DNA of 64,000 nucleotides from an uncultured beta proteobacterium (lineage in GTDB: Bacteria; Pseudomonadota; Gammaproteobacteria; Burkholderiales; Burkholderiaceae_C). The translations under genes were made by a program, and so were the position numbers. The notes below the pieces were generated by a model. It saw only the letters and a program-made list of their open reading frames with translations, had not been told where the DNA came from and ran no database searches. Shown here one piece after another: positions 50,769 to 62,411 of the stretch (its first letter is position 1; each line of letters begins with the position of its first letter). The stretch covers positions 39,538-103,537 of the forward strand of contig CAIJOK010000106.1 in NCBI GenBank assembly GCA_903822205.1, given 5' to 3'.

Positions 50769-52430
50769 ATGAGCAAACCTAAGCCCTTTGATTTTTGTGC
50801 TGCCGTGTTGGTGGTGGCCCCTTTGATGCTGGTTCAGCCGGCCCTGGCGATCAACTCGGCTGATGCCAACGATGTCGTCACTGCTGTCACTGCGGTCAAA
50901 TTTGACATTGCAGGTTTTTTTGTCGATGGCAACACCCTGCTGCCCACGGATGAAATTCAGCAAACCCTGGCCCCCTTTACCGGTGCGGGGCGCACGATGG
51001 AAGATGTGACACGGGCGGCTGCGGCACTGCGATCTTTGTACCTGGACGCAGGCTATGCTGTGGTGCAGGTTCATGCACCGCAGCAGGCCGTCAGCATGGG
51101 ACAGGTGGTGCTCAAGGTGCTTGAAGACAAAATCAAGTCGATCGATGTCAAAGGCCATTCCGCCTACGGTATCGACAACATTTTGGCCAGCCTGCCCCAG
51201 CTTGAGGTCAATCAAAGCTTTAACGCCAAGCGTGTCGAGTCCGCGATCGCCCTGGCCAATGAAAATTCAGCCAAACAGGTGGCAGTCAATGTGCAGCCCG
51301 GCACAGTCCCGGGCGACATCCTGACCATGATCGATGTCACCGAAGATCGTATTCGCAGGCTGGTGGCCACCTATGACGACACCGGCAGCGAGGCCACAGG
51401 CTCCAACAAGGTGGGCCTGACTTGGCAAAATGCCAACCTGTTAGACAGCGACCATGCCCTGACGCTGCAATATGGCGGCACTCTAGACCACGTGGACAAG
51501 GTCTATAGCCTGAGCGCCGGTTACCACATTCCGTTTTATGCGCTGGGCGTGTCTGCCGACCTGATGGCGGCCTATTCGTCGTCGTCAGGCCAAAATGTCA
51601 ACCTGTACTTTGCCGGCAAGGGCACCGTGCTGGCGGGCCGTTTGAACTACCCATTGGCCACCATGGGCTACCTTCGCCACAAGCTGATCCTGGGGGCGGA
51701 CTACAAGGATTCTGAGAGTGTTTCAGGCCCCCTGACCACCCCCATCACCGAGACCCCCGCCAGCCTGACCTGGTTTGCACAAATGGCCAGTCCCGGGTTT
51801 CAGGGCAATGCCAATGTGACGTGGGTGCGCAACCTGGGCGGCGGGGCGCATGGCCAAAGCGCCGACTATTACGATCAGACGACCGGACGGGGCGCACGTA
51901 CGCCGATCAGTGGCCCAGCCAGCAGCAATTTTCCGGGCGACCAATGGCAGGCCGTGCGCATTGGTGCATCAGGCGGGCTTAACCTGCCGCTGGACTGGCA
52001 AGCGCGGGCCGGTCTTAATGCCCAGTTGTCTGGCGACTTGTTGCTGCCGTCCGAACAGTTTGGCGCAGGCGGTGTCAGCTCGGTGCGTGGCTATCCTGAG
52101 CGCATCCTTTCGGGCGACCAGGGCTACACCGTCAATTTTGAGCTTTACACCCCCGAGCTGAACCCCTACGTGGGCGGGCCAGATGCCAGCTTGCGCGCCC
52201 TGGTGTTTGTGGATGGGGGCCGTGTGTCGATCAACGACACACCTCTGCCGGCGGGGTTTAGGGCCTCCCAGATCATCTACAGCGTGGGTTTTGGGCTGCG
52301 CATGACTTACAAAAAGGACATCACTTTCAAGCTGGACATCGGCAAAGCGCAAAGAGCCGCAGGCGCGGCCCCCTTGATCGTCAACCAAGGCGACGTTCGC
52401 GGCAATGTCTTGTTGTCTGTCGCATTTTGA
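50769..52430 (+). CDS. TpsB-family outer membrane transporter (ShlB/FhaC/HecB type)
   Basis: The outer-membrane pore that secretes its partner exoprotein in two-partner secretion. It has 553 residues from ATG 50769. Signal peptide to about residue 27 (QPALA). Two POTRA-type domains: FDIAGFFVDGNTLLPTDEIQQTLAPFTG, then VEDKIKSIDV-like strands with a GHSAYGIDNILASLPQLE stretch. A 16-strand barrel has the conserved VRGY tetrad in GGVSSVRGYPERI, the L6 loop motif of the family, and a C-terminal Phe. It lies 44 bp upstream of the exoprotein gene. Confidence 0.93.
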   Translation: MSKPKPFDFCAAVLVVAPLMLVQPALAINSADANDVVTAVTAVKFDIAGFFVDGNTLLPTDEIQQTLAPFTGAGRTMEDVTRAAAALRSLYLDAGYAVVQVHAPQQAVSMGQVVLKVLEDKIKSIDVKGHSAYGIDNILASLPQLEVNQSFNAKRVESAIALANENSAKQVAVNVQPGTVPGDILTMIDVTEDRIRRLVATYDDTGSEATGSNKVGLTWQNANLLDSDHALTLQYGGTLDHVDKVYSLSAGYHIPFYALGVSADLMAAYSSSSGQNVNLYFAGKGTVLAGRLNYPLATMGYLRHKLILGADYKDSESVSGPLTTPITETPASLTWFAQMASPGFQGNANVTWVRNLGGGAHGQSADYYDQTTGRGARTPISGPASSNFPGDQWQAVRIGASGGLNLPLDWQARAGLNAQLSGDLLLPSEQFGAGGVSSVRGYPERILSGDQGYTVNFELYTPELNPYVGGPDASLRALVFVDGGRVSINDTPLPAGFRASQIIYSVGFGLRMTYKKDITFKLDIGKAQRAAGAAPLIVNQGDVRGNVLLSVAF

Positions 52431-52474
52431 TTTTGAGTCACCGTCATTATTTTGAATTTGAAGGTATTCGCACC

Positions 52475-55400
52475 ATGAAATCACACCACACCACACCCTC
52501 GTCTGCCGTATCCACAACACCGGTCGCCAACGCAGCAGACTTTCGTCTCAAAACCTCTTTTGTTGCCATTGCTGCCTGCTTTATGCCGTGGGTTTACGCT
52601 AACCCTGTGGGGCCGGTGGTCGTCCACGGCACGGCCACCATGGCCACCCAGGGAAGCACCTTGAGCGTGACCAACACCCCGGGGACCGTTTTGAACTGGC
52701 AACAGTTCAACATTGGCCAGGGCCAGACCACGCAATTTATCCAGCCATCTGCCCAGTCTGCGGTGCTTAACCGCGTGATAGGTACGGATGCCAGCCAAAT
52801 CATGGGCACCCTGCGGTCCAACGGCCAGGTGTTTTTAATCAACCCCAATGGCATTTTGTTTGGAGCCGGCGCAGTCATCGATGTCAATCGGCTGATCGCC
52901 TCGACGCTCAACATCACCGATGCCAACTTTTTGGCCAACAACCTCAAATTTGGTGGCAGCAACGGCACGTCCGTGGTCAATCAGGGCCGGATCACCACGC
53001 CGCTGGGGGGCAGCGTTTATCTGATCGGCAACGATGTGTCCAACCAGGGCGTGATCACCACACCCCAGGGCCAGGTGGTGCTGGCAGCAGGCAGCAGTGT
53101 CAGTCTGGTCGATACCGCTACGCCGCACATCAGCGTGACGGTCAGCGCTCCGGCAGGCGGCCAGGCCTTCAATCTGGGCCAGGTAACTGCTGCCGGCGGG
53201 TCGATAGACATGTATGGCGCACTGGTCAGACAGCAGGGCGTTGTCAGCGCCGATAGTGCCCACATCGACGCACAGGGACAGGTGGTGTTGTCGGCCACGC
53301 AGTCGGTGGATGTGGCCGCAGGCGGCAGCACCACAGCCACCAACAGCGCGGGCCAAGGCGGCACGGTGCACATTTTGGCCCCGCAAGTGGCGGTGGCAGG
53401 TGCCATCGATGTTTCAGGCAGCTCGGGCGGCGGCACGGTTTTGGCAGGCGGTGACTACCAGGGCAGCAATGCCGCAGTACCCAATGCACTGACGACTGAT
53501 GTGGCCTCAACGGCCAGCATCAAGGCTGATGCCACTGGCACGGGCAACGGCGGCAAAGTGATTGTCTGGGCCAACGACAGCACACGGGTCAACGGCAGCA
53601 TTTCAGCGATGGGCGGGGCGGGTGGCGGCCATGGCGGTTTTGTGGAGACCTCGGGGCATGTGCTGGATGTGACGGGCATCACGGTCAATGCCCAAGCACC
53701 AAAGGGCCTGCCCGGGAATTGGCTACTGGATCCCATTAACGTCACGATTGCAGCAGCGGGTGAAACTGCCGGCTCTTGGCTCAATGGCACCTGGACACCC
53801 AGTGCAACAGGCTCCACTGTTTTGAACACCAGCCTTGAAATAGCCTTGAATGCCGGTACCAACGTCACCGTGACCACCAATGGCGGCAGTGCCTCTGATC
53901 TGGGTGACATCAACGTCAATGCCCCCATTACCAAGACCGGAGCGGCCCTCTCTAACCTAACCCTCAACGCTGCTCACAACATTAACCTGGACAACGCCAT
54001 CACCTCGACCGGCGGTGTCTTAAACCTGTCCTTGAACGCTCAGACCGGTGTGACCCAATTGGGCAACGCCACGGTGGCACTGGGTGGGGGCGCGATGATC
54101 TCTGAAGAATCTCCCCCTGGGCCTGGGGTTGCAGGGGCACGCGGTGTGGTCAGTTTGGCCGCAGGCAAGACATTTACCGCCAACAGCGACATGCTGGTGA
54201 GTGGTCTCAATCTTACGGGTGGCACATTGCAAGGTAGCGGTGCAGTCACCGTCATGAGCAATTACAACCAGACTGGCGGTGCGATCAACACCACCGGTGC
54301 GCTGTCTATCAACCAGTTGATCGGTACGCTTAACCTGGGCAACATCACCGCAGGCTCTCTGGCGCTTGCATCGGCGGGCGACATCCAACAAACAGCGACC
54401 AGCGGACTGGTTGCAGGTGGTTTGACCACAAGCTCTGCCAAAGGCGCAGCGCTCAACGGCACAGCCAATCAAGTGGCCAGGTTCACGGCCAGCAACACAG
54501 GGACCGGTAACGTCGAACTGGTTAACGGTGTGGCTTTGGCAGTGCAAGGCATTGACGCGTCCAACGGCAACATCACGATCACCAACACCGGTGGCATCAC
54601 CACCACGGGCGAGGTAACAGCCAAAAACGGCAACCTGTCCATGACAGCCAACAGTCCTCTGACGATTGGCGGACAGGGTGTGTCTGCCAGTGGGGACATC
54701 GCTCTGGTCACCACCAATCTGACCAGCTCGGGCGACATGACGCTGAATGCACCGGTTACCTCTGGCGCAGGCGCTATCAACCTGAAAGCCGCCAACAACT
54801 ACGTGCAAAACAGCGCGGTGTCTGCCGCAACGGGTGTAACGGCCAGTGCCGGTGGCAGCATGACACTTGACCCCAAAGCCACCACCCACGGCAGGCCGGT
54901 TGCCTACACCGCTGCGGGTGTGAGTCAATCACCACCGTCTGACCCGGATCCGCTGGCATCGGTATCTTTCCCGGAGCCGGAGCAACCACAAACCTGTCTG
55001 ACCAACCCCACATTGTGTGAAAAAACTTTGCAAGTCGTCCACTTGCAAGGTTCAGACACCGACATGCCCAGTACAGACAACCGTGTGAATGCAATCAGCA
55101 AAATCAGCTACCAAAGCATTCAAGCCGTTGTCGCATCAGCAGAAGTTGTGACCTACAAGGAAATCGTCCACGCCCGCACCGATGCGCGTCGGGCTGACGA
55201 TGCAGCCCAAATCGCTGAAGACCTTGTGCTTCAGGCCCAATCCCCCGAAGAAAAATCAGCCGCGCAAGAAGTGGCCAAATTCAAGTCTGGAGACGCTGAT
55301 GCCAAACGTGCAACCGCCAAAATGGCCGAGGCCGAGTCTGAACGGCAAGCCGCAGAGCACGAGGTCACAACTGCATCGTCCGAACACGACCGTGTGCGGG

Positions 55401-57631
55401 CAGAGTCAAGGCGCGCCGTAGCTGAGTCCAAACATGCTGAGGCCGCTGTGGACAAGGCCGATGCAGAGTCACGCATGGCTGAGTCCGAGCTCAAAACCGC
55501 CAAAACCCCTGAGGCCAAAAATCGAGCTGAGTTAAAACTGGCTGCCGCCCAGGCCCAAAAGACCGAGGCTGAAGTGCATCAAGCCGAGACCGATGTCAAA
55601 AAAGCAGAGGTTGAGGTTCGTCAGGCTGAGGTTCAGGCACGGGCAAGCACCTCTGCTCAGGCCCAAGACACGGTCGCTTTGAAACAGGCCGCAGTCCAAA
55701 GCAAACGCGCAGATGCTGAGCTGAAGCAAGCCCAGGCCGAACTCAATGCAGCCAAGACCTCTGCGGATGCCGATAGGGCACAAGAAAAACTGGCTGCGGC
55801 AGAGATCAAAAAATCAGGCTCAGAGGCCCACGCAGCGGAGTTGGAGGCCAGGCATGCCCAAACACGGGCGCAGTCGCCTGAGGCTGCACCGGTCGATCAA
55901 CACAGGGCTGCCGTCAAGCAGGCCGATGCCGATGTCAAAAAAGCCGATGTCGAGCTTAAACAATCGGCCCGAGAACTGAAATCCGCAACGACAGAGGATG
56001 CTCGCCAAGCCGCTATCGCCACTCACGCCAGGGCTGATGCCCATAAAGCCCAGCTTGAGGCCCAAAAAGCCGACCGCGAAGTGGCCATGACCGAAGCGCT
56101 TGCCACAGCCCATCCACAGGCGCAGCAAGACATTCAGGCCAAAAAAGCAGGGGCCGCCGTCAAGGCAGCAGATGCTGAGGTCAAAATGGCACAGGCAGAG
56201 GTTCACACTGCCAAAGAGCCCCATGTCCGAGATGCCGCTGTAGCCAGACGCAACAGCGCAGAACTTAAAAAATCGCAAGCAGAGCTGAGAAGTGCCGAAC
56301 TGGCCGCCAAGCGTGACCAAGATGATGCCAGCGCACCGCAGTCAGCGTATGTCAAACTGGCCGTCGATAAAAGAGCGATCGCTTCAACGGCTGTGCTTCA
56401 AACCAAAAAAGCCGAGCTAGAGGTCAGGCAAGTCCAACTTGCAGTCAAGCACGCCGAAGCGGCCTTGCGACACGCCAGGACTCCTGACGAAAAGGCTGTA
56501 GCGCAACAACACCTTGAGGCTGTTCGCACACAAGCCAGCGCCATAGAGCAAAAGGCAGCAGCCCTCAAGGCCGATGCCGATGCCAAAACCGCTGATGCTG
56601 TGATTGCCAAACGCAGCAGCGACAGCAAAATCATTGAAATTTTTGGTGGCATGACCCTGACCGCCACAGCCCAGACCCGCATCAAGAGCGCCATGGAGGC
56701 CCGCCATGCGTTCATGACCGAAACCCTGAAACCTGCGCTTGAAATTTTGCAGGCCAACCCCCAGGCCGCCGACCTGCCAACCTGCGGTGCATCCAGCGGA
56801 GATGTTTGCATCAGGCAGGCCTCATTGGCCACCGACAACCAGCCGCCAGTCATCATGCCCCGTGTACAGTCGCCAGTGGTCAAACCGGTGATCTCGTACC
56901 TGCCCGCCATCGTGCGCAAAGTGGCTGTGGTGATCGGCAACAATGCCTACCTTGACCCCAAAATTCCGTCACTTGACGGTGCCATCAAAGATGCCGATGC
57001 GATAGCAGACTTGCTTAAAGCCAAGCTGGGCTATGAAGTTCGCATGGTGCATAACGGCACCAAGGCCGATATCATTCGTCAGCTTAACTTGGTTTCAGAC
57101 GAGACAGGGTCAGAGGACAGCGTGGTGGTGTATTACGCAGGCCATGGTTACCAGATGCAGGACACCAAAGAGGGCTATTGGATTCCTAGCGATGCATCGG
57201 TCAAAGACCCGGGCAACTGGGTGTCCAACGCTGACATCACCAAAATTTTGACCAACATTCCGGCCAAACAAATGATCTTGATGTCCGATAGCTGCTATTC
57301 AGGGGCATTGACCAACGAGCAGCGCGTGACCGCAGGCACGGACAGCAGCAATGTGCAGGATATTTTGGGAAAACGTTCAGTGCTGGTGATGTCATCCGGT
57401 GGTGAAGAACCCGTGCTGGACGAAGGCCGCGAAGGTCATTCGATCTTTGCCTGGCATTTGATGGACAGGTTAAACCACGTGGCGCAATACAAAAACGGGT
57501 TTGATATTTTTGAGGCCGTCAAGGCCGCTGTGATCAAAGACGGCATTCCGCAAACGCCGCAATATGGCGCATCACCCCGTGCTGGCCACAAAACGGGCGG
57601 CGAGTATTTGTTTGAGGTTCGCCAATATTGA
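52475..57631 (+). CDS. TpsA exoprotein: filamentous-haemagglutinin domain, long coiled coil and C-terminal caspase-like protease
   Basis: A 1,718-residue protein from ATG 52475 (GAAGG 10 bp upstream), partner of the TpsB encoded just before it. (1) A long signal sequence to about residue 44 (SFVAIAACFMPWVYA). (2) The TPS secretion domain with NPNGIL at 123-128, then Gly/Ala/Thr/Asn-rich beta-helix to about 830. (3) A linker with a Cys pair, C841 and C848 (CLTNPTLC), like the cysteine clusters at the end of many exoproteins. (4) About 880-1390: Ala/Lys/Glu-rich coiled coil of repeated KADAEVKKAE-like units. (5) From about 1480, a peptidase C14 caspase-like domain, AVVIGNNAY, with catalytic H1557 (YYAGHG) and C1607 (DSCYSG). 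Known exoproteins usually end in adhesin or toxin domains; a protease of this type would be carried outside the cell. Its target and activation are unknown. Confidence 0.9.
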   Translation: MKSHHTTPSSAVSTTPVANAADFRLKTSFVAIAACFMPWVYANPVGPVVVHGTATMATQGSTLSVTNTPGTVLNWQQFNIGQGQTTQFIQPSAQSAVLNRVIGTDASQIMGTLRSNGQVFLINPNGILFGAGAVIDVNRLIASTLNITDANFLANNLKFGGSNGTSVVNQGRITTPLGGSVYLIGNDVSNQGVITTPQGQVVLAAGSSVSLVDTATPHISVTVSAPAGGQAFNLGQVTAAGGSIDMYGALVRQQGVVSADSAHIDAQGQVVLSATQSVDVAAGGSTTATNSAGQGGTVHILAPQVAVAGAIDVSGSSGGGTVLAGGDYQGSNAAVPNALTTDVASTASIKADATGTGNGGKVIVWANDSTRVNGSISAMGGAGGGHGGFVETSGHVLDVTGITVNAQAPKGLPGNWLLDPINVTIAAAGETAGSWLNGTWTPSATGSTVLNTSLEIALNAGTNVTVTTNGGSASDLGDINVNAPITKTGAALSNLTLNAAHNINLDNAITSTGGVLNLSLNAQTGVTQLGNATVALGGGAMISEESPPGPGVAGARGVVSLAAGKTFTANSDMLVSGLNLTGGTLQGSGAVTVMSNYNQTGGAINTTGALSINQLIGTLNLGNITAGSLALASAGDIQQTATSGLVAGGLTTSSAKGAALNGTANQVARFTASNTGTGNVELVNGVALAVQGIDASNGNITITNTGGITTTGEVTAKNGNLSMTANSPLTIGGQGVSASGDIALVTTNLTSSGDMTLNAPVTSGAGAINLKAANNYVQNSAVSAATGVTASAGGSMTLDPKATTHGRPVAYTAAGVSQSPPSDPDPLASVSFPEPEQPQTCLTNPTLCEKTLQVVHLQGSDTDMPSTDNRVNAISKISYQSIQAVVASAEVVTYKEIVHARTDARRADDAAQIAEDLVLQAQSPEEKSAAQEVAKFKSGDADAKRATAKMAEAESERQAAEHEVTTASSEHDRVRAESRRAVAESKHAEAAVDKADAESRMAESELKTAKTPEAKNRAELKLAAAQAQKTEAEVHQAETDVKKAEVEVRQAEVQARASTSAQAQDTVALKQAAVQSKRADAELKQAQAELNAAKTSADADRAQEKLAAAEIKKSGSEAHAAELEARHAQTRAQSPEAAPVDQHRAAVKQADADVKKADVELKQSARELKSATTEDARQAAIATHARADAHKAQLEAQKADREVAMTEALATAHPQAQQDIQAKKAGAAVKAADAEVKMAQAEVHTAKEPHVRDAAVARRNSAELKKSQAELRSAELAAKRDQDDASAPQSAYVKLAVDKRAIASTAVLQTKKAELEVRQVQLAVKHAEAALRHARTPDEKAVAQQHLEAVRTQASAIEQKAAALKADADAKTADAVIAKRSSDSKIIEIFGGMTLTATAQTRIKSAMEARHAFMTETLKPALEILQANPQAADLPTCGASSGDVCIRQASLATDNQPPVIMPRVQSPVVKPVISYLPAIVRKVAVVIGNNAYLDPKIPSLDGAIKDADAIADLLKAKLGYEVRMVHNGTKADIIRQLNLVSDETGSEDSVVVYYAGHGYQMQDTKEGYWIPSDASVKDPGNWVSNADITKILTNIPAKQMILMSDSCYSGALTNEQRVTAGTDSSNVQDILGKRSVLVMSSGGEEPVLDEGREGHSIFAWHLMDRLNHVAQYKNGFDIFEAVKAAVIKDGIPQTPQYGASPRAGHKTGGEYLFEVRQY

Positions 57632-57737: not shown

Positions 57738-59288
57738 ATGATCCGCAAAAAACTCCCACTTGGTATTCAGACTTTTCGCGAAATCATCGAGGAAGGTCAC
57801 TACTATGTCGATAAAAGTGGCATTGCAGTACGTCTTGTCAACGAGGGTAAATATTACTTTTTATCGCGGCCACGGCGGTTTGGCAAAAGCCTGTTTTTGG
57901 ATACGCTCAAAGAACTGTTTGAGGGCAACGAATCGCTTTTCAAAGGGCTGGCCGCAGAGACCCGATGGGACTGGAGCAAGAAATATCCTGTGCTTCGCAT
58001 CAGCTTTGGCGCAGGTGTGTTGGGGTCGGTGGCTGATTTGCAGCAAAGTTTGCACCAGCAATTGACCACCATGGAAGATCAGTTTCTGTGTGCAGCGAGG
58101 TTTTTGGATCACCGCAGTCGTTTTAAAGACATCATTGTCCACGCGGCAAAAAGTACCGGCCAGCGCGTGGTTATCTTGGTCGATGAATATGACAAACCCA
58201 TTCTAGATCGCATTGAAGAGCCGGACATTGCACGGCAAATTCGCGAAGTGCTCAAGGATTTGTATTCGATGATCAAGGATAGCGATGCTTATATCAAATT
58301 TGCTTTGTTGACTGGTGTGTCCAAATTCAGCAAGGTCAGCCTTTTCTCTGGCCTGAATAACCTGAAAGACATCACACTGGATGAGCGTTACAGCGATATT
58401 TGTGGCTATACCGATGCGGATGTGGATACGGTATTTGCGCCCGAGTTGCCTGGCCTGGACCGTGAACTGATCCGCGAGTGGTACAACGGCTATAACTGGC
58501 TGGGTACGTCGGTCTATAACCCCTTTGGTTTGTTGCAACTGTTTGATACCCGCAAGTTCAAGCCGCACTGGTTTGAGACCGGTACGCCCTCTTTTTTGAT
58601 CAAACTGCTTGAAAAACGCCAACAATTCACCCCTGACCTGTCGCGCATCGTGGCATCTGATACGCTGCTATCGACTTTTGATATTGACAACATTCCGGTG
58701 GAGGCATTGCTTTTTCAGACAGGCTACCTGACCATTGACAGCGTCAGGTACACACCCGGTCGTCTAACATTAACGCTGAAATACCCTAATCTGGAGGTGC
58801 AAGCCAGTCTGAACAACTGCCTGCTGCAAAGCCTGACCGGCAGTCAAACCAAGCCGGAAACACAGATGAACCAGTTGTATGACCTGCTGATTTCCTTGGA
58901 TTTTGCCGGCCTTAAAAACCTGTTTCACACCTTTTATGCCAGCATTGCCAACGACTGGTATCGTAAAAATGAGATGAGCGATTATGAGGGTTACTATGTC
59001 AGTATCTTTTACAGTTACTTTGCCGCGCTGGGACTTCATATCCAACTGGAAGACCCGACCAACTTTGGCTGTATTGACATGACCGTGCTGTTTCAGGGCC
59101 ATGTTTATCTTTTTGAGTTCAAGGTGGTCAAGGTCAGGTCACGTGGTCAGGCTTTGAAGCAAATCAAGGAACGCAATTACGCTCAAAAATACAAAAATAG
59201 GGGCGAACCCATCCACCTGATCGGCGTGGAATTCAGCAAAGCCAGCCGCAATATTGTCAGGTTTGAGGTTGAAACGCTCCCCATTTGA
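57738..59288 (+). CDS. AAA-ATPase-like / PD-(D/E)XK family protein, copy 1
   Basis: A 516-residue protein of the AAA-ATPase_like (PF09820-type) plus PDDEXK_9 (PF08011-type) architecture. The N-terminus LPLGIQTFREIIEEGHYYVDK and the atypical P-loop RPRRFGKS (K50) are followed by Walker B VVILVDEYDKP (D149, E150). The C-terminal nuclease-like motif is D447 (IDMTVLF) and E460-x-K462 (FEFKV). The family is widespread and often multi-copy; its function is not known. Residues about 81-185 are unlike copy 2, although both flanks are nearly identical. It begins 106 bp after the exoprotein gene. Confidence 0.88.
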   Translation: MIRKKLPLGIQTFREIIEEGHYYVDKSGIAVRLVNEGKYYFLSRPRRFGKSLFLDTLKELFEGNESLFKGLAAETRWDWSKKYPVLRISFGAGVLGSVADLQQSLHQQLTTMEDQFLCAARFLDHRSRFKDIIVHAAKSTGQRVVILVDEYDKPILDRIEEPDIARQIREVLKDLYSMIKDSDAYIKFALLTGVSKFSKVSLFSGLNNLKDITLDERYSDICGYTDADVDTVFAPELPGLDRELIREWYNGYNWLGTSVYNPFGLLQLFDTRKFKPHWFETGTPSFLIKLLEKRQQFTPDLSRIVASDTLLSTFDIDNIPVEALLFQTGYLTIDSVRYTPGRLTLTLKYPNLEVQASLNNCLLQSLTGSQTKPETQMNQLYDLLISLDFAGLKNLFHTFYASIANDWYRKNEMSDYEGYYVSIFYSYFAALGLHIQLEDPTNFGCIDMTVLFQGHVYLFEFKVVKVRSRGQALKQIKERNYAQKYKNRGEPIHLIGVEFSKASRNIVRFEVETLPI

Positions 59289-59456: not shown

Positions 59457-59473
59457 CATTTGAAAGTTAGTTG

Positions 59474-61063
59474 ATGACATCCTCTACACAACACCCGTTT
59501 ACGTCCACGAGCATGCCGTTGATACGGCGCAAATTGCCCATTGGTATTCAGACTTTTCGCGAAATCATCGAGGAAGGTCACTATTACGTCGATAAAAGTG
59601 GCATTGCAGTACGTCTGGTCAACGAGGGAAAATATTACTTTTTATCGCGGCCACGGCGGTTTGGCAAAAGCCTGTTTTTGGATACGCTCAAAGAACTGTT
59701 CGAGGGTAACGAGTTGCTTTTCAAAGGGCTGGCCGCAGAGACCCGATGGGATTGGAGCCGCAAATTTGCAGTAATTTTTATCAGTTTTGCCGAGGGTGTG
59801 GTGCATAGCCGCGAGGCACTGAATGCCAAAATCACCGAACAGATTGATGTCAACCAAGAGGCCCTGGGCCTGCACACAACCCAGCCCATGCTCTCGGGCC
59901 GATTTAGCGAGTTGATTCGACTGACCCGGGCCAAGTATGGTCAACGTGTTGTGGTTCTGGTGGATGAATACGACAAGCCCATGCTGGACAATATCACCGA
60001 TCCTGGCATTGCCAGCGACATGCGCGATGGCCTGCGTGATCTGTATTCGGTCATCAAGGGGCAGGATGCCAACCTTCAGTTTGCCATGCTCACCGGTGTG
60101 TCCAAGTTCAGCAAGGTGAGTTTATTCTCGGGCCTGAATAACTTGACAGATATTACGCTCGATGAGCGTTACAGCGATATTTGTGGCTATACCGATTCTG
60201 ATATCGATACGGTGTTTGCGCCCGAGCTGCCCGGCCTGGACCGTGAACTGATCCGCGACTGGTACAACGGTTATAACTGGTTGGGTACGCCGGTCTATAA
60301 CCCCTTTGGCTTGTTGCGTCTGTTTGATACCCGCCAATTCAAGCCGCACTGGTTTGAGACCGGTACTCCCGATTTTTTGATCAAACTGCTGGAAAAACGC
60401 CAACAATTCACCCCTGATCTGTCGCGCATCGTGGCATCTGATACGCTGCTATCGACTTTTGATATTGACAACATTCCGGTGGAAGCATTGCTTTTTCAGA
60501 CCGGCTACCTGACCATTGACAGTGTTTGGTATGCGCCTGGCCAGATGGAAATCACCTTGAAATACCCCAATCTGGAGGTACAGGCCAGCCTAAACAACTG
60601 CCTGCTGCAAAGCCTGACTGGCAGCCTGAATGTACCCGGGCCGCAGATCACAAGGCTCTACAAACTGCTGATTAAACGGGATTTTGTCGGCCTTAAAAAC
60701 CTGTTTCACGCCTTTTATGCCAGCATTGCCAACGACTGGTACCGCAAAAATGAGATGAGCGATTATGAGGGTTACTATGTCAGTATCTTTTACAGTTACT
60801 TTGCTGCGCTGGGACTTCATATCCAACTGGAAGATCCGACCAATTTGGGCTGTATTGACATGACCGTGCTGTTTCAGGGCCATGTTTATCTTTTTGAGTT
60901 CAAGGTGGTCAAGGTCAGGTCACGTGGTCAGGCCTTGAAGCAAATCAAGGAGCGCAATTACGCCCAAAAATACCAAAACCGGGGCGAACCCATTCACCTG
61001 ATCGGCGTGGAGTTCAGCAAAGCCAGCCGCAATATCGTCAGGTTTGATGTTGAAACGCTATAG
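59474..61063 (+). CDS. AAA-ATPase-like / PD-(D/E)XK family protein, copy 2
   Basis: A tandem paralogue of the 57738-59288 gene, 529 residues from ATG 59474; ATG 59513 (MPLIRRKLPIGIQ) matches the paralogue's start better. Same P-loop RPRRFGKS, Walker B VVVLVDEYDKP and C-terminal FEFKV motif. DNA of the first 230 bp and of most of the last 900 bp is almost the same in the two copies. The block between about residues 95 and 200 is diverged in sequence and length, with a second smaller diverged patch after SLTGS (about 385-400). This points to recombination or gene conversion with selection for different middle parts. It ends 28 bp before the FIST gene. Confidence 0.88.
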   Translation: MTSSTQHPFTSTSMPLIRRKLPIGIQTFREIIEEGHYYVDKSGIAVRLVNEGKYYFLSRPRRFGKSLFLDTLKELFEGNELLFKGLAAETRWDWSRKFAVIFISFAEGVVHSREALNAKITEQIDVNQEALGLHTTQPMLSGRFSELIRLTRAKYGQRVVVLVDEYDKPMLDNITDPGIASDMRDGLRDLYSVIKGQDANLQFAMLTGVSKFSKVSLFSGLNNLTDITLDERYSDICGYTDSDIDTVFAPELPGLDRELIRDWYNGYNWLGTPVYNPFGLLRLFDTRQFKPHWFETGTPDFLIKLLEKRQQFTPDLSRIVASDTLLSTFDIDNIPVEALLFQTGYLTIDSVWYAPGQMEITLKYPNLEVQASLNNCLLQSLTGSLNVPGPQITRLYKLLIKRDFVGLKNLFHAFYASIANDWYRKNEMSDYEGYYVSIFYSYFAALGLHIQLEDPTNLGCIDMTVLFQGHVYLFEFKVVKVRSRGQALKQIKERNYAQKYQNRGEPIHLIGVEFSKASRNIVRFDVETL

Positions 61064-61091
61064 ATGCAACAATGACACAAGAAATCACCCC

Positions 61092-62411
61092 ATGTTCAAA
61101 ATCAGTATCTCCCACAGTTTGACATCTGATGCCAGGGTTGCCGCGACAGCCATGGCGACCCATGCACTGCAAGAGCTGGGTGACTGTGCGCCCACGGCGG
61201 CCCTGTTGTTTTCAACGTTTGGCAACGATCACGCCGGTTTGCTCAAAGAACTGGTGCAGTTATTGCCCGACTGCCCCATTGTGGGCGGCAGTTCAAATGG
61301 TGAGGTTTCGCGTGAACAGGGTTATCGCGTGGGGTCTTCTGTGCTCATCGTGTTTGCCAGCGACACCATCATTATCCGTGCAGGTGTGTTGCGCGGCTTG
61401 ACGTTTGATAACGATGCGTTGAATCTGGAAATGGCTTTTCAGCAATGGCAAACACAGGGATTGGCGCATCCATCCAGCAAGGGCCAATCCCTTGGCACGC
61501 CTGTACTGGGTTTATTGTTTCCTGATGGTTTGGGGTTGGACGGTGGGTCGATCGTCAGGTTGTTTTCAGATTATTTTGTGGGCACCCGATTTTTTGGGGG
61601 GGCCAGTGCAGAGAACTTTACGCTGACGCAAACGGTGCAGTTTTTTAATGACGAGGTACTGCACAACGCTGTGCCCTATTTGCTGTTTTATGGCCCGCTG
61701 CGCTGTCACTGGGCAGTCACTGAGGGCTTGGGGTCGGGCTGGCATGCGGTGGGTGATCGCATGGAGGCACAATGCAATGGCAAATTCATCCAAACCATCG
61801 CGCAAAAACCCGCCGTTGAATACCTGGCATCGCGCTACCGCCTGCAAGGGGGGCAGTTATCGGTTTGCCACCCTTTTGTGATTTACCCCAACCGCGACAG
61901 TAACGAGCATTATTTGCGAGATGTGATTCGGTATTGTGAGGAAACAGGCCAATTGGAATCCGTGCAGATTTTGCCAGCGGATTGCCAGATTCAACTGACC
62001 CAGCCCAATGTCACCGATATATTGGCGGTGTCCAGACAAAACATTCACCAGGCTCTGGCGCATTTTCCGGGTACAGAGGTTCCTGTGGCAGCGCTTTGGT
62101 TTTCATGTGTCAGCCGTGCTCTGGTACTGGAGCAGAATGCCGCAGATGAATTCAAAACTGCCACCGAGACGATTCCATCGTGTTTGCCTGTGGCGGGTTT
62201 TTATACCTACGGCGAAATTGCTCCATCTGGTTTATTGGGTCAAAACGCTTATCACGGTGCAACCCTAGTTACCTTGCTGCTGGGTGAGGAGCCTTTGACC
62301 GCTACCGGTATCTTTGATCAGCACCATCAGTTTTCTGCCAACAATTTGGCGCAGGATAACCAGGCACTGCGCCAGGCATTGGCCGCCAGTCAGGTTTGGC
62401 TTGGTGTGTGA
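61092..62411 (+). CDS. FIST-domain sensory protein
   Basis: A 439-residue cytoplasmic protein with FIST N- and C-terminal domains. IVGGSSNGEVSREQGYRVGSSVLIVFAS, LLFPDGLGLDGGSIVRLF and RFFGGASAENF belong to the N-domain. AALWFSCVSRALVLE and LPVAGFYTYGEIAP belong to the C-domain. FIST modules sense small ligands, probably amino acids, and are usually joined to kinase or GGDEF outputs. Here the protein stops shortly after the FIST C-domain in a helical stub (LAQDNQALRQALAASQ) that looks like the beginning of a linker, so it may be truncated. ATG 61092 is preferred to upstream TTG/ATG codons. Confidence 0.85.
   Translation: MFKISISHSLTSDARVAATAMATHALQELGDCAPTAALLFSTFGNDHAGLLKELVQLLPDCPIVGGSSNGEVSREQGYRVGSSVLIVFASDTIIIRAGVLRGLTFDNDALNLEMAFQQWQTQGLAHPSSKGQSLGTPVLGLLFPDGLGLDGGSIVRLFSDYFVGTRFFGGASAENFTLTQTVQFFNDEVLHNAVPYLLFYGPLRCHWAVTEGLGSGWHAVGDRMEAQCNGKFIQTIAQKPAVEYLASRYRLQGGQLSVCHPFVIYPNRDSNEHYLRDVIRYCEETGQLESVQILPADCQIQLTQPNVTDILAVSRQNIHQALAHFPGTEVPVAALWFSCVSRALVLEQNAADEFKTATETIPSCLPVAGFYTYGEIAPSGLLGQNAYHGATLVTLLLGEEPLTATGIFDQHHQFSANNLAQDNQALRQALAASQVWLGV

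Follow-up and report, generated by a model that had tools for sequence, protein, structure and literature searches.

A caspase-like protease domain at the C-terminal end of a two-partner-secretion exoprotein: a rare and conserved combination

Introduction

TpsA exoproteins such as FHA, HMW1, HxuA and CdrA are alike in having a signal peptide, a TPS domain, a dedicated TpsB and a long repeat region. HMW1 and HxuA each carry a disulfide loop that fixes their C-terminus in the TpsB pore and keeps it periplasmic (PMC5422565, PMC8151025); close cysteine pairs need not impede export (PMC8151025). The TpsA CdrA stays attached to the cell surface through a periplasmic tail, which is open to cleavage by a cysteine protease. 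That protease, LapG, is a separate, transglutaminase-like enzyme, whereas the exoprotein described here carries its protease within its own chain.

Most discussion of bacterial caspase homologues concerns intracellular programmed cell death. Caspase-fold proteases outside the cell have a precedent in the gingipains, which belong to clan CD but to family C25 rather than C14. Some gingipains are joined to haemagglutinin-type regions; they use type IX secretion and their catalytic domain is N-terminal. Cyanobacterial TPS proteins with a CHAT domain are another possible precedent, and neither CHAT nor C14 was found in the four cyanobacterial plasmid TPS proteins that we scanned. The bacterial orthocaspases and metacaspase homologues of family C14 resemble the protein described here in fold, His-Cys dyad and DSC motif. 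According to a review, extra domains of orthocaspases are commonly C-terminal to p20 (PMC5756287), whereas in the present protein C14 forms the very C-terminal end of a TPS giant. A Campylobacter genome paper of 2005, compared by its description only, places metacaspase-like ORFs near TpsB genes; its legend names them apart from the FHA-like ORFs (PMC539331), in contrast to the fusion seen here. Extracellular roles for some metacaspases were already suggested in a 2012 survey (PMC3501461).

Results

The window, the whole stretch of DNA analyzed here, comprises 64,000 nucleotides from an uncultured beta proteobacterium. It contains a tpsB gene at 50769-52430 on the + strand, as are all features of the gene pair given below, which encodes an outer-membrane transporter of 553 aa (Pfam ShlB, 1.8e-20; POTRA_2, 9.1e-15). 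The ATG of tpsA-C14 follows 44 bp after the tpsB stop and opens a frame for an exoprotein of 1718 aa (52475-57631), which bears out the gene order given in the first-pass annotation, with the exoprotein gene 3' of its own TpsB gene. An alternative TTG start at 52427, where the ORF list begins, would give 1734 aa; the residue numbering of that annotation fits the ATG at 52475. The window TpsB is 44-64% identical to the TpsB encoded directly upstream of the TPS-C14 gene in five other loci (L132, L008, L009, L010 and L011).

The exoprotein begins with an extended signal peptide, read from the sequence (residues about 1-42; 52475-52600), which ends ...VYA just before NPVG; A42, N43 and P44 are invariant in an alignment of six proteins. 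The TPS secretion domain follows at 52640-53299 (PF05860, 96 bits, E 3.8e-27; TIGR01901). A signal peptide (by eye), an N-terminal TPS domain and a cognate TpsB of the ShlB/POTRA_2 type are thus all present in the window, and the earlier claim that the protein carries the signals for the TPS export route stands. Judged from these signals, the protein is almost certainly exported from the cytoplasm.

At the other end of the chain lies a peptidase C14 (caspase) domain at 56915-57568 (PF00656, 97 bits, E 1.8e-27; also matched by Foldseek). Catalytic His1557 (57143-57145) is within YYAGHG starting at residue 1553, and catalytic Cys1607 (57293-57295) is within the DSC of DSCYS starting at 1605. The dyad is intact as previously read, with H and C also present in relatives: both positions are invariant in the six-way alignment and kept in 66 of 66 rows of a family search, which represent 60 different proteins; the profile used for that search had itself been derived from sequences that carry the dyad. 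The Asp two residues before the catalytic Cys, which we take to have a role in the S1 pocket, is invariant in the six aligned proteins.

A model of the C-terminal module (342 residues, from 7 sequences) is of modest quality, with a mean pLDDT of 57.6 and a pTM of 0.64; blocks of the p20-like core reach pLDDT ~64-90 and the last ~110 residues are poor. Its best solved Foldseek matches are the MALT1 paracaspase (E 1.3e-10), a Candida glabrata metacaspase (3.6e-8) and Geobacter GSU0716 (9.3e-8), so that the structure prediction, a check proposed in the first-pass annotation, agrees with a caspase fold. By sequence, phmmer matched metacaspase-9 weakly (2.8e-5) and GSU0716 (0.0033). The domain is probably an active protease, presumably cutting after Arg or Lys. 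Calcium dependence, which the first-pass annotation had anticipated, should not be assumed, as a review suggests that activation of orthocaspases occurs without calcium (PMC5756287). An ordinary C14 paralogue or a misannotation was considered and rejected: the three other C14 genes of the same genome are frames of 527-656 aa with DAC instead of DSC and have no TPS part.

Between the TPS and C14 domains lie two regions of different character. The first, at 53300-54994, is a Gly/Asn-rich repeat region, presumably a beta-helix. Its final part looks like the corresponding part of a TpsA without C14 from the same genus (L139). The second, at 55154-56650, is a helical array rich in A/E/K/Q/R/D with a net charge of -4. 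We modeled the 878 residues from the CLTNPTLC motif onward from 6 sequences (mean pLDDT 68.5, pTM 0.52); the packing of the helices in this model is not trustworthy and its first 52 residues are below pLDDT 50. The array (residues 894-1392, 499 residues) is drawn as 12 helices with a mean length of 38, mostly at pLDDT 80-95 and interrupted by motifs like AKTPEAK, and one further helix precedes the second cysteine pair. The region had been described as about 500 residues of coiled coil; its helical nature is upheld, and the model shows 12 helices, not one rod. Among the 50 Foldseek matches listed of 333, all have the caspase fold and none matches the array. Residues 1393-1482, ahead of the C14 domain, contain nine Arg/Lys.

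Neither of two cysteine pairs in the protein was mentioned in the first-pass annotation. The first, C841 and C848, lies in CLTNPTLC (54995-55018) and is a possible export-stalling loop; the second, C1437 and C1445 (56783-56809), is in the linker before the protease. All four are invariant in the six-way alignment, and the only other cysteines in the protein are catalytic Cys1607 and Cys35 in the signal peptide. The motif of the first pair, CxxNPxxC, is found in seven of 13 TPS-fused proteins (the window protein, L005, L132 and L008-L011), always where the repeat region gives way to the helical array, although the repeat regions themselves differ greatly. It is missing in six (L084, L085, L086 and three Azospirillum proteins) and in all 20 C14-free TPS proteins compared, of which 16 have their end within the retrieved DNA (L018 partly masked). 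The second pair occurs in ten of the 13 TPS-fused proteins and in all four stand-alone C14 proteins described below; the three Azospirillum proteins have neither pair. Conserved short-range cysteine pairs such as these would suit an oxidizing compartment.

Cysteines of other kinds were seen in C14-free TpsA proteins. In six (L022, L029, L134, L136, L138 and L139), a cysteine lies one or two residues short of the last; a C-x15-C pair occurs close to the C-terminus of two; and the cut-off end of a TpsA from Massilia sp. TS11 (L012:16170-17150) has tandem cysteine repeats of the C-x-x-NP-x-x-x-x-C type.

How common is the combination of TPS and C14? Scanning genome contigs with a pattern turned up 26 loci, many of them cut off before the gene end, and TPS and C14 share one frame in five: L005 (Nitrosomonadales), L008 (Gallionellaceae), L009 (Desulfobulbaceae), L010 (Sterolibacterium) and L011 ('Deltaproteobacteria'). 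Genome searches added L132, a second copy in the L005 genome, L084 and L085 in one genome, and L086 in a single-contig genome, for a total of ten TPS-C14 proteins in eight genomes, the window's included. A plasmid search returned four Azospirillum records in which a 'filamentous hemagglutinin' gene overlaps a C14 match, and three of these were examined. Pfam finds both domains in all 13 proteins (10 genomic and 3 Azospirillum plasmid). The first-pass annotation left open how rare the TPS-C14 combination is; we find it to be real, conserved and rare. The same architecture in seven other genomes, one of them single-contig (G343), and on complete Azospirillum plasmids makes an assembly chimera unlikely. 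TpsB is encoded in the loci of L008, L009, L010, L011, L132 and L086, with a weaker match at L084 (82 bits) and a partial one at L005; none was found in the three Azospirillum stretches, each of ~18.7 kb, or in the upstream part of the short L085 contig.

Because at most five candidates were scored per genome, the counts from one class and two phylum searches are lower bounds: at least four of 369 genomes of the class carry the module at >=390 bits (one stand-alone and three TPS-fused, among which is the window genome); in the phylum, at least 19 of 398 genomes matched at E<=1e-70 (two TPS-fused, the window's own and G343, one stand-alone and 16 others of 248-272 bits, most in frames >1000 aa); and among 395 genomes of the phylum of L009, the full module was found in the L009 genome alone, with the C14 part at ~226 bits in two others. 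Across 13 genomes of the genus, at most 23 candidates scored in each, TPS and C14 share a frame in the window's own genome (G000) alone. A recent insertion within the genus was considered, and no empty site was found among the genus genomes compared.

We found no description of a TPS-C14 fusion in the literature searched, to which subscription journals are largely external. The 2012 metacaspase survey (PMC3501461) does not use the terms hemagglutinin or haemagg in its main text, nor do two orthocaspase papers, including PMC5756287, use hemagglutinin or haemagglutin, figures being outside the search in each case. Exported caspase-fold proteases as such have precedents; the small TPS-C14 family is uncharacterized.

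The C14 lineage extends beyond TPS proteins. Four loci (L010, L087, L131 and L133) encode C14 proteins that stand alone, begin with a signal peptide (by eye) and share the second cysteine pair. Directly upstream of the gene in L087, L131 and L133 are a barrel gene and an alpha/beta-hydrolase gene, whose products are 42-44% and 42-55% identical, respectively, among the three loci; this gene pair was not seen at L010. Pfam matched the autotransporter barrel in L087 and L131 and not in L133, and scored the hydrolase family above the cut-off in L133 and a little short of it in L131 and L087. On the Sterolibacterium contig, ~3 kb separate the stand-alone gene (L010:1897-3123) from the TpsB/TPS-C14 pair downstream of it. 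Where their N-terminus is present, the long C14 proteins of the phylum search start with an LEPR-like motif (by eye), and Pfam finds DUF4347 together with C14 in all seven giants scanned, which come from seven of the 16 genomes (L118, L120, L121, L124, L125, L128 and L129).

A quick tree of 60 C14 domains (13 TPS-fused, 4 stand-alone, 17 DUF4347-type and 26 others) splits the first three groups from the 26 others with an SH-aLRT of 97; it is midpoint-rooted, with groups named by locus and no 'ordinary' outgroup row, and carries a long-branch warning for L078, L086 and others. The ten TPS-fused domains from outside Azospirillum group at 89, under the tool's starring level. The Azospirillum domains sit apart from these, which would fit either an older TPS fusion or two separate origins of it. 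Eight of the 26 others were viewed by eye: five have a lipobox-like start and Sel1-like repeats and three lack that layout. The view of bacterial caspase-like proteins as mostly intracellular, from which the first-pass annotation started, describes the C14 proteins found here only in part, as exported-looking ones recur among them (signal peptide or lipobox-like start, by eye). In other families of the class (L062, L063, L067, L068 and L075), a lipobox-like start is followed by Sel1-like repeats, a coiled-looking region and a C-terminal C14; the repeats are Pfam-checked in L063 only.

Gene neighborhoods of the relatives vary. L132 is near a CHASE2-cyclase gene and a protein kinase gene with a cyclic-nucleotide domain, and L133 is near a CHASE2-cyclase 39% identical to that of L132. 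L086 is near T6SS_FHA_C, PP2C and OmpA genes, and L011 near OmpA and peptidoglycan-binding-domain genes. Scanned neighbors of L008, L009 and L010 gave redoxin, M23 peptidase or no Pfam match, and the Azospirillum loci are surrounded by genes for metabolism and transporters. None of the OmpA-/peptidoglycan-type, CHASE2, kinase, T6SS_FHA_C or PP2C neighbors was found directly beside the window locus.

Discussion

We propose, as a tentative reading with chances slightly below even, that the locus encodes an adhesin-like TPS exoprotein with a protease at its trailing end, whose chain stalls during export and is processed in the periplasm. The exoprotein would be exported by Sec and its TPS domain would dock on its own TpsB. 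The repeat region would be threaded out and fold on the surface, until the CLTNPTLC pair at its end formed a small disulfide loop and stalled the chain in the TpsB pore, as in HMW1 and HxuA. The helical array and protease would then remain in the periplasm beneath the outer membrane, where the protease could process its own chain or a neighboring envelope protein and thereby govern how the surface part is assembled or released. The most likely main job of the enzyme, again at less than even odds, is to process or release a surface protein, either its own or that of a partner.

Several observations count for this proposal: the invariance of C841, C848, C1437, C1445, H1557 and C1607, and the stand-alone relatives with their signal peptides, second pair and, in three of four, barrel and hydrolase neighbors. 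Periplasmic cleavage of the TpsA CdrA by LapG and disulfide-locked periplasmic TpsA C-termini are both described in the literature (PMC5422565, PMC8151025, PMC4694147). By analogy with the anchored TpsA proteins, the first pair may stall export and keep helices and protease periplasmic. The likeness goes as far as the cysteine pair: the loop of HMW1 and HxuA is at the C-terminal end, whereas here ~870 residues, with the long array and C14, follow it, which counts against the proposal. So do the lack of TpsB in the Azospirillum stretches and on the L085 contig, the lack of OmpA-/peptidoglycan-type neighbors at the window locus and the lack of a match to the array among the Foldseek matches listed.

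Where does the protease end up? The whole chain may instead cross the outer membrane, with the protease acting at the surface or shed, on matrix, neighboring cells or prey; we regard this as a serious alternative, though a less probable one. The six members without CxxNPxxC, including the Azospirillum proteins without any cysteine pair, count against periplasmic stalling. Passage of the whole chain would also fit the same C14 lineage ending DUF4347 adhesin-like giants, the ability of close cysteine pairs to pass, noted in PMC8151025 and counted against our proposal, and the inclusion of the gingipains in clan CD (PMC4357240). What speaks for the periplasm is the constant position of CxxNPxxC at the repeat/helical junction in seven of 13 proteins and the OmpA-type and peptidoglycan-binding proteins near some relatives. 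Given the cysteine pair, a periplasmic protease is at least as likely as a surface one for the window protein: we give the periplasm an even chance as the final site, and the surface a distinctly lower one.

Two further explanations concern what the domain does. It could serve purely to mature the exoprotein, in a role like that of the MARTX cysteine protease domain, which belongs to the same clan (PMC4357240). The Arg/Lys residues just ahead of the domain could offer cleavage sites, and orthocaspases are described as autoprocessing (PMC5756287), but the four stand-alone forms lack any exoprotein part on which to act, and we consider this unlikely. Less likely still is a contact-dependent effector, in which C14 would enter neighboring cells in the manner of CdiA, the helical part serving for its delivery. 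C14 is indeed C-terminal behind variable middle regions, and toxic domains are known at the C-terminus of some TpsA proteins (PMC5422565). Yet the VENN motif is absent from all ten proteins searched, which come from outside Azospirillum, the C-terminal domain is conserved and not swapped among the members compared, and no small immunity-like gene is seen by eye directly downstream in the window, where an AAA-ATPase_like/PDDEXK_9 gene comes next.

If a conserved lineage is linked to adhesin-like secreted proteins, caspase-type proteolysis would take place in the envelope or outside the cell, where it might control surface attachment. More speculatively, and with rather low probability, one exported-caspase lineage could be wired to surface proteins in at least three arrangements (TPS exoprotein fusion, DUF4347 adhesin-like giant fusion, and stand-alone beside an autotransporter-like barrel) as a general device that senses or binds and then executes at or under the outer membrane. 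Location and function can be tested directly, because named Azospirillum strains, among them Azospirillum sp. B510 and A. lipoferum 4B, carry a TPS-C14 gene.

The DNA downstream of tpsA has features of its own. Two tandem, similar AAA-ATPase_like/PDDEXK_9 genes lie directly downstream (57738-59288 and 59471-61063), with a GC of about 0.49, lower than that of the TPS locus. Farther downstream is a FIST-domain gene (61044-62411), found in one of 16 genomes of the genus and in none of the 15 others at E<=1e-30; a second copy, 86% identical, is located elsewhere in the same genome (G000:C123).
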